A stretch of 64,000 nucleotides of DNA from Lophium mytilinum (Eukaryota > Ascomycota > Dothideomycetes > Mytilinidiales > Mytilinidiaceae), in contig MU004193.1 of NCBI GenBank assembly GCA_010093605.1, forward strand, positions 1,554,858 to 1,618,857, in the 5' to 3' direction. This document shows positions 15,856 to 18,183 of this stretch, in pieces. The position numbers were made by a program, and so were the translations under genes. Numbering within the stretch: position 1 is the stretch's first letter; the number at the start of each line of letters is the position of its first letter. The notes under the pieces are model-generated. The model was given only the letters and a program-made list of their open reading frames with translations, did not search any database and was not told the DNA's origin.

Positions 15856-18183
15856 TCACCGCAGTCCGAAAATTTCCCTTTTACTCGCTGAAGAGTACCA
15901 CTTGCCGTCCATGACATCGTGGATATAGCAGGACCCAACCAGTTTGTATTCATTACGAGTCTTCATCGGTCTTAACACGTAAGGTATCGTCGCACGGCTC
16001 AATACCACGACGATGTCATTCTTTTGCATCGATCCAGGCCCGATACCAAAGTAACCCTCCCAAGTATAGAATATACGTCGTCCAAGAAGTCTAATCTCGG
16101 CTAGTCGTGCATAGTGAGTTTCTGTGAAGTCGTGTTTGTGCACTGAGATGGAAAAATCGTCTTGATAACGTCCGTACAATCCATGGAATACCTTACGGCG
16201 AAGATCCATAGCACATTTGTAGTCCGGATTCGTAAGTTCTTCCCAGAAAGAGCCTCCTTCTTTTGTGTAGTCGGGGTCAAAACGTTTTTGAAAAGTGTAT
16301 TTAAATTTTTTCAACATGGATTTCATAAACGTTAAAAACTCTATGTTCAATGCAGACTCAGTGTTCTCGTACACAGGCTGTTGATCATCCAGGAGTCCCT
16401 GTATAAGAGTAATGGCCATACTTCGAATTTGCGACTCTCGATCTTGATTTCTCTGTCGATTGGCCTGGTGTATTCTGAACCAAAGCTCTAAAATCTGATG
16501 CGTTGCATCCTCTTCATCCGTTGAGAAACTATTCAACAGTCTCCCATTTCGATGAGGTTCTAGCAATGCACCGGCATGGTCGACAGTGTCAAATTTGCGT
16601 CCGACAACATGGAGCGTATCTTGGGTTATTCTCGCGGGTTTTCCCGCTTTATAATCCCCACAGGCGGACCAGAGATTTAGCAAGCGTACATCTAGCGATG
16701 GACTATCCTCGTTCCATAGTGGTACCCAAGAAGGATGATCCGAGTCCGTTGATTCTGCTGCGGCAAGGAGGGAAAGATCTCCAGTCGTCTCGATAATACT
16801 TTTCGCTGCATCAAAATAGACATCAAAGATGCTCTTGTCATAATTCGGTATCAAGGATGAAGTGTTGACTTTCCAATCAATCAGACCCAATAGCGCATAC
16901 ACCTTATCTCGTGGATTAGTTGCTTTCCGATGTCGGAAGTCGGATAGAGCATATAGTAGTCCCCTGGGATCCGAATCCAAGTGATACCGTGTTGTGCTCA
17001 GGGTGTCGTAAACGCTACGCACTGCCTTATGCTCTTCTTCCCCCCAGAGCTGACGCACATCCACCTCTTGCTCAAGCCACCATGGAATCAACGGCATGAT
17101 ACGCTTCCAGGGAATTTTGGATGGTGGATCACAACCCAAAAGCACAACGGCATCCTGAGCGAGAACAATCTCTTGAACACACCATATTCTTGTGAACCAA
17201 GCGTCTTGAATGAAACTTAGGAAGGCTTCTATCTTTTCCGAGTTTTCTACCACTTTCTTGGCCAACTTTTCCTTGAGCGCCTCTGGTCCTGCGTAGACTT
17301 CTTCCGGCAGAATTAATGCTGACTTGATGGATTTCCCAGCCCCTCGAAGCTTTTCCATCAATTCCATAGCTTCAATCGTTATTTCGGGCCCGTGATACCA
17401 GTGCTTGTAGGTAATGGACACTACGACTCGCGAAGCCTCAGAGTAGATGGTTTTCATAAGCTGCACTTGCCCGGTTTTCTCATCGTTGTCATCTTGATTG
17501 ATACAAACGTAATCGATCCATAGGAGACGTCTTTCGTCTTCATAACGCAGTTGCTTCAACGCAAAAAGGAGGTTTGGAGTGACATCAATGCGGTAACCAT
17601 CGCAGAGAATTGGCTTCAATTTGGTGCTTGTTCCCCATACATACGAAAGCGCTTCGTAAGCAGGTAGATTGTCGGTTTCGTGTACCACCAGCTTGCATTC
17701 GATTTGTGCATCTACTTTCCCAGGTAAAATGACAAGAAGTCGGACTTCGTAGCCGTTGAGCCGCTTTGTGTACATGTACATCGGTACAGGTTCTCGACGT
17801 CCACTGGGCAATGTGTTTGTAGCCATGATAGACCGGGATGGAACCTTGCTAGGAACTGGCGCCAATGGCTTTGACGGTTGTCGCAAGGGAGTTAAAGTAG
17901 CAGGCTTCAGTGTCCCATTGGAATCGTGCGACTTGGGCGATTTGGATGCCTTTGGTGCAGGAGGCTCTTCAGGTAGAGGATTTGGATTGGAAAGCTCTTC
18001 TGCCGTGATGGAACCCAGCAACTCCAAAGGTTTGGACGCCCTTGGGGCAAACGGCGTAGCCTCGCCATTGAAGCTTTGGGTGCGGACGGAATTTGAAGCT
18101 CGCGGAACGAAATCCTTGACGGCTGCATCAAGCTTGATCGTCGAAGGAACGAAAGCACTCGCTTTGGGATTGAGATAGCTCAT
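15856..18183 (-). CDS. HET-domain (heterokaryon incompatibility) protein with N-terminal PAM2-like motifs
   Basis: A single 775-codon frame. The HET domain spans about residues 176-340: YEALSYVWG (176-184), LWIDYVCINQ (221-230), a segment around SRVVVSI and FTRIWCVQEIVLA. Further family blocks follow, such as NPRDKVYALLGLI, PSWVPLW and the tail EYKLVGSCYIHDVMDG. HET domains trigger growth arrest and cell death when fungi of unlike type fuse. Ahead of the domain is a Pro/Ser-rich disordered region. It opens with three PAM2-like peptides: LNPKASAFVP (4-13), LDAAVKDFVP (18-27) and FNGEATPFAP (38-47). PAM2 peptides bind the MLLE domain of poly(A)-binding protein. An internal Met at 120 would drop all three motifs, but the ATG at 18183 keeps the first motif right at the start. 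The gene is flanked by a duplicated block upstream and a HET relic downstream. Confidence 0.92.
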   Translation of the reverse strand: MSYLNPKASAFVPSTIKLDAAVKDFVPRASNSVRTQSFNGEATPFAPRASKPLELLGSITAEELSNPNPLPEEPPAPKASKSPKSHDSNGTLKPATLTPLRQPSKPLAPVPSKVPSRSIMATNTLPSGRREPVPMYMYTKRLNGYEVRLLVILPGKVDAQIECKLVVHETDNLPAYEALSYVWGTSTKLKPILCDGYRIDVTPNLLFALKQLRYEDERRLLWIDYVCINQDDNDEKTGQVQLMKTIYSEASRVVVSITYKHWYHGPEITIEAMELMEKLRGAGKSIKSALILPEEVYAGPEALKEKLAKKVVENSEKIEAFLSFIQDAWFTRIWCVQEIVLAQDAVVLLGCDPPSKIPWKRIMPLIPWWLEQEVDVRQLWGEEEHKAVRSVYDTLSTTRYHLDSDPRGLLYALSDFRHRKATNPRDKVYALLGLIDWKVNTSSLIPNYDKSIFDVYFDAAKSIIETTGDLSLLAAAESTDSDHPSWVPLWNEDSPSLDVRLLNLWSACGDYKAGKPARITQDTLHVVGRKFDTVDHAGALLEPHRNGRLLNSFSTDEEDATHQILELWFRIHQANRQRNQDRESQIRSMAITLIQGLLDDQQPVYENTESALNIEFLTFMKSMLKKFKYTFQKRFDPDYTKEGGSFWEELTNPDYKCAMDLRRKVFHGLYGRYQDDFSISVHKHDFTETHYARLAEIRLLGRRIFYTWEGYFGIGPGSMQKNDIVVVLSRATIPYVLRPMKTRNEYKLVGSCYIHDVMDGKWYSSASKREIFGLR
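18043..18174 (-). other. Three tandem PAM2-like motifs (coding, residues 4-47 of the HET protein)
   Basis: Aligned on the PAM2 pattern L-N-x-x-A-x-x-F-x-P, motif 1 (LNPKASAFVP) matches fully. Motif 2 (LDAAVKDFVP) differs by N to D and A to V. Motif 3 (FNGEATPFAP) differs by L to F only. All three keep the Phe and final Pro that contact MLLE in known complexes. Motifs 2 and 3 are followed by RAS. Confidence 0.75.

Follow-up and report, generated by a model that had tools for sequence, protein, structure and literature searches.

A HET-domain protein of Lophium mytilinum with an N-terminal array of PAM2-like motifs and its putative docking on poly(A)-binding protein

PAM2 motifs and HET proteins in described systems

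PAM2-type motifs dock onto poly(A)-binding protein, the protein that coats mRNA tails, and ataxin-2 and Pan3 are known PAM2 proteins. The HET domain is a module tied to programmed cell death. As defined in the available portion of PMC2854688, a PAM2 motif has a hydrophobic residue at position 3 (usually Leu, sometimes Pro or Phe), usually Asn and less often Ser at position 4, Pro, Val or sometimes Thr at position 5, Ala at position 7, preferably Glu at position 9, Phe at position 10 and usually Pro at position 12. The same portion links the multiple PAM2 motifs of eRF3 to higher affinity. Excerpts on Ustilago maydis describe Upa1, whose PAM2 was predicted by profile and shown to bind the MLLE domain of Pab1 (PMC4466420), and Upa2, which carries four PAM2 motifs; they report that the functions tested did not require the motifs of either protein (PMC4466420, PMC9249222). 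For known MLLE/PAM2 pairs, PMC9249222 quotes Kd values of 0.2-40 uM. Concerning the HET domain, the accessible text of PMC10197012 reports that it suffices for fungal cell death and is a distant relative of TIR, with an enzymatic activity still to be established, and that of PMC12881547 speaks of hydrolase activity for HET and of guard models put forward for other incompatibility proteins.

Our literature search, with most subscription papers outside its reach, returned no work joining a PAM2 motif with a HET domain, and none of the matches listed linked HET or incompatibility with Pab1, PABPC1, polyadenylate-binding or stress granule. In the single paper that does pair PAM2 with heterokaryon incompatibility, pam2 is the name of a spore-colour mutant, and the paper was set aside as unrelated.

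The HET gene and its N-terminal extension

We analyzed a stretch of 64,000 nucleotides of L. mytilinum DNA (the window), in which a single unbroken frame on the minus strand (15856..18183, stop included) opens with an ATG at 18183 and encodes a protein of 775 aa. A Pfam search at E<=10 placed the HET domain (PF06985) at residues 176-338 (17170..17658, minus), where profile positions 1-146 of 146 are matched with 99.5 bits against a curated cut-off of 22.5; the sole other match was the PAM2 profile at residues 1-14. In an alignment of the query with 46 of the 120 listed homologues, used for conserved columns only, the query keeps all 16 columns that are invariant among the 47 sequences. As the earlier note had read it, this is a HET-domain protein, and its domain is complete by profile. 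Among the matches of twenty other open reading frames in the window are kinase, transporter, transcription-factor, WD40 and oxygenase ones; the twenty include one further HET gene, and none of them is an obvious partner gene. The second HET-domain frame of the window (55327-56307, minus, 109 bits) lacks the motifs described below.

Ahead of the HET domain lies an extension of 119 residues (17827..18183, minus) that is rich in Pro, Ser, Ala and Lys (20 P, 17 S, 13 A and 10 K) and, from composition only, is probably disordered. The extension is coding-like: its in-frame coding score is 0.101 bits per codon, compared with 0.115 for the remaining gene, as scored with the codon usage of 50 stop-to-stop segments of >=400 residues, some from overlapping loci. 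Its two other forward frames contain 3 stops each, donors of the narrow GT[AG]NG type are absent from it, and the best antisense frame over its whole length scores 0.024 bits per codon. The 357 bases upstream of the gene score negative in all three forward frames.

The first ATG has the context CTCAACATGAGC and is preceded by CAAC. Met120 (17824..17826, minus), named in the earlier note as a possible real start, is in frame and is the first Met after Met1 in the translation. We take both start contexts to be acceptable by the start-context rule, so the first ATG is favored, but not proved, and we infer translation from Met1. That Met120 is the real start and the 119 upstream codons form an untranslated leader is unlikely. 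Such a leader would fit the good context of Met120 (TCTATCATGGCT), the nearly equal antisense and sense scores over codons 61-119 (0.069 and 0.065) and the shape of the best listed homologue, the Trematosphaeria pertusa protein P0001 (29% identical to the query across 81% of its length, E 3e-61), which starts without the extension near the position aligned to about residue 131 in a view of three sequences. It fits poorly with 119 codons left open in frame beside stops in the other forward frames, with a positive sense score set against negative forward scores upstream of the gene, with the CAAC before the first ATG, and with several other HET frames of this genome that also have long stretches ahead of the HET domain.

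Searches for the origin of the extension gave no match for residues 1-119 in the protein set (395 candidates, limited to 0.55-1.75 times the query length, at E<=10), and in its own genome the extension matched itself and one chance segment (E 2.84, with two stops). A PDB search with residues 1-47 returned two weak, unrelated matches, and Rfam found nothing at gathering score in 15000-20500. The extension holds four copies of the string P[KR]AS (17929-18180, minus), with codons partly differing at Arg/Lys and Ser/Ala; perhaps it is a degenerate repeat or a modification site. In motif 1 the string is internal, whereas at motifs 2 and 3 it follows the motif, and this difference in register led us to reject expansion of the repeat as the source of the motifs.

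The PAM2-like motifs and the Pab1 MLLE domain

The three motifs read from the translation are LNPKASAFVP at residues 4-13 (motif 1; 18145..18174, minus), LDAAVKDFVP at residues 18-27 (motif 2; 18103..18132, minus) and FNGEATPFAP at residues 38-47 (motif 3; 18043..18072, minus), strings and positions being exactly those given in the earlier note. Measured against the definition in PMC2854688, motif 1 has the full core, with 6/6 positions (3 L, 4 N, 5 P, 7 A, 10 F, 12 P), and carries Ala at position 9, where Glu is preferred. Motif 3 has 5/6 (3 F, which is allowed, 4 N, 7 A, 10 F, 12 P), with Gly at position 5 and a further failure at position 9; its Phe-Asn opening also occurs in Pan3 and ataxin-2 of the same genome. 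Motif 2 is degenerate, retaining 3/6 (3 L, 10 F, 12 P) with D at 4, A at 5 and V at 7, and its Asp at position 9 is close to the preferred Glu. On these residues a PAM2 reading appears well supported for motif 1, fairly supported for motif 3 and weak for motif 2 alone, so that the former interpretation is supported in part. The motif Phe residues are Phe11, Phe25 and Phe45, and the motifs are separate, without overlap; an overlapping pair in the style of eRF3, which would need a Phe spacing of 9, was rejected on the spacing of 14 seen here.

A scan with the Pfam PAM2 profile (PF07145), suggested earlier as a check on the motifs, matched the region of motif 1 with 12.0 bits (E 0.19) and so stayed below the curated cut-off of 20; motifs 2 and 3 gave no match of their own. 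The same profile found nothing in the pieces of ataxin-2 and Pan3 from this genome (one 715-residue and one 100-residue segment), which carry FNVRAADFKP and FNVDSPAFTP, respectively, and hence missing the curated cut-off says little here. Further controls scored 14.4 bits (an RNA-binding protein with LNPLANPFVP) and 13.8 bits (its Mytilinidion relative). At the default E<=0.001, PF07145 matched nothing when the genome was searched in six frames, control genes included. At E<=10 it gave three: the N-terminus of the HET protein came first (18.0 bits, E 0.198), followed by the gene with LNPLANPFVP (17.4 bits) and a stretch that is apparently non-coding (15.9 bits). This search is no census, because only three candidates passed its first look.

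Several other genes of the genome carry strings of this type. The gene with LNPLANPFVP (L036 from 772; G000:C4, near 1808271, plus) corresponds to P0121 of L. mytilinum (574 aa, 100% match), in keeping with the identity of the organism, and scripted placement of its third intron gave no solution; a distant relative of the protein carries the source name RRM domain-containing protein, and Mytilinidion resinicola P0122, 80% identical to it, keeps the string as LNPLAQPFVP in a diverged N-terminus. A protein with RRM and CCCH-like regions (L070 385-2619, minus; G000:C1), its CCCH match being below cut-off, contains LSATAPTFNP. In the ataxin-2 gene (L069 2211-4355, plus), FNVRAADFKP overlaps PNPNANAFTP at an offset of 9 residues, equal to that of the eRF3 pair.

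A Pro-, Ser-, Ala- and Lys-rich tail might present PAM2-like strings by coincidence and never bind Pab1, a reading that we consider doubtful and yet the most serious of the alternatives. The low-complexity composition, the repetitive P[KR]AS strings, the degenerate state of motif 2 and the absence of conservation evidence from a protein set that gave no close homologue all speak for it, as does the frequency of single matches: other open segments, totaling 324,142 residues, contained 59 relaxed and 7 stricter matches (segments of >=40 residues in six frames, those with motif 1 removed, some loci overlapping). Pairs of relaxed motifs within 60 residues, however, occurred there only in ataxin-2, in two overlapping segments. 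Shuffling that keeps composition argues further against coincidence, in figures that are optimistic because the patterns were written after the motifs had been seen: among 100,000 shuffles of residues 2-119, three relaxed matches appeared once and two or more stricter matches never, and among 300,000 shuffles of residues 2-50, run with a slightly different relaxed pattern, three relaxed matches appeared in none and two stricter ones in 4. The P[KR]AS strings, moreover, do not share one register with the motifs. Judged from the sequence, the PAM2-like array is real and unlikely to have arisen by chance.

We next consider the receptor. An exon-wise six-frame search, by which a divergent MLLE could be missed, detected one MLLE place in the genome, that of Pab1. 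The domain spans an exon junction, the next exon continuing TSDDEALRAKVQEAMSVYDDY, and once joined it matches human PABPC1 MLLE structures (E about 1e-19), including the group with 3KUS, the MLLE complex with the PAIP2 PAM2 according to the available part of PMC9249222. Of the PABPC1 contact residues listed in the portion of PMC2854688 at hand, Gln560, Gly563, Glu564, Gly579, Lys580, Thr582, Met584, Leu585, Leu586, Glu587, Lys606, Glu609, Ala610 and Val613 are kept in Pab1, as judged by eye; of these, Gly563, Thr582 and Leu586 form the pocket into which Phe11 of motif 1 would be expected to insert. Three contacts are changed (Phe567 to Tyr, Ile588 to Met and Leu614 to Tyr). His617 of human PABPC1, outside the printed alignment, would presumably be Tyr in the Lophium protein. 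By this comparison the MLLE pocket of Pab1 is canonical, with nearly all PABPC1 contact residues kept. We consider it highly improbable that the array consists of genuine linear motifs recognized by some partner besides Pab1. MLLE proteins such as Rrm4 and UBR5 do exist elsewhere, according to the excerpt of PMC9249222; against such a partner, Pab1 is the only MLLE place detected here.

A proposed HET effector on Pab1 and its comparison with known proteins

We favor, with somewhat better than even confidence, a HET effector that docks through an N-terminal PAM2 array on Pab1 and poly(A) mRNPs. The probably disordered N-terminus would carry one complete, one good and one degenerate motif, the array would dock the protein on the MLLE of Pab1 and hence on poly(A) mRNPs, and the extra motif copies would add avidity or redundancy. 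As the most likely consequence, still conjectural, the HET effector might be positioned or held in check by Pab1 or the mRNP, acting as its platform or as a partner under guard, until a disturbance of translation or of the mRNP. Of the link between HET and poly(A)-binding protein put forward in the earlier note, motifs 1 and 3 and a canonical MLLE are present in the genome; the tether itself, like any role in monitoring translation or in delivering death, is an inference.

Pab1 binding might instead serve ordinary mRNA regulation, with the HET domain in a role other than death. PAM2 proteins of the literature do act on mRNA, and most HET genes, in the accessible text of PMC10197012 and PMC12881547, are not known incompatibility genes. 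We regard this as quite unlikely, since the HET domain is complete by profile with its 16 invariant columns kept and such domains are reported to suffice for fungal cell death (PMC10197012, in the text available).

A bolder version of the favored docking model, which we offer tentatively and consider well short of even, makes the HET effector a guard of poly(A)-binding protein and thus a fungal immune sensor of translation. The PAM2 array would keep the effector on Pab1, and loss or cleavage of Pab1, or its occupation by a foreign factor, would release HET-driven death; alternatively, the trigger could be a different Pab1 or mRNP state met after cell fusion. This conjecture arises from joining the fungal PAM2-Pab1 precedent, HET cell death and the guard models. 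If docking on Pab1 is true, the state of mRNA and translation would be linked to regulated cell death in fungi, which agrees with the guard models described for other incompatibility proteins in the excerpt of PMC12881547. In addition, a HET protein whose docking peptide is recognizable, and whose target domain is known and of solved structure, would have a directly testable partner.

The array appears to be confined to this protein among the relatives covered. From 8000 scored proteins we obtained 243 relatives and listed 120; among these 120 (of 243), none contained a strict PAM2 string, 8 contained a single loose one and none contained the array. The genome has at least 58 HET places including this one, and the array was likewise found in 0/57 of the others. 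None of the 57 has a strict or middle-pattern match in its HET frame; the strict match of L002 falls in a frame upstream. Relaxed matches occur singly: L009, L019 and L041 carry one each in the HET frame, at residue 184 or later, 11/57 carry one in some frame upstream, and none has two. Since L009 is truncated at the 5' end and stops or introns interrupt several HET frames, the scan may have missed some N-termini. The search of the protein set returned no close homologue of the HET protein, and this gene looks like an orphan even though the set includes the sister genus Mytilinidion. The search returned no identical record either, although P0121 of L. mytilinum is present; the gene may be unannotated, modelled otherwise or left out of the set. 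A PAM2-like array with a complete HET domain is a combination that the searches made did not find elsewhere, and it is strong enough to test.

Compared with the stand-alone HET incompatibility proteins TOL, PIN-C and HET-6, the present protein is alike in having HET as its only known domain and differs, by description, in its array, no PAM2 array being mentioned for them in the available text of PMC10197012 and PMC12881547. Upa1 and Upa2, fungal proteins that dock on the MLLE of Pab1 via PAM2, as excerpts of PMC4466420 and PMC9249222 describe, resemble it in its proposed docking; these proteins serve endosomal mRNA transport, are without HET and have had their binding measured, whereas that of the HET protein is predicted. 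Ataxin-2/Pbp1 of the same genome (L069) likewise has two PAM2-like strings close together, but it is an Lsm/LsmAD protein and its strings overlap. Finally, eRF3/GSPT1, according to the part of PMC2854688 available, also has more than one PAM2 motif in its N-terminal region. Its two motifs overlap and share Phe76, with a Phe spacing of 9, whereas those of the HET protein are separate, and where eRF3 has a GTPase domain, the Lophium protein has a HET domain instead.
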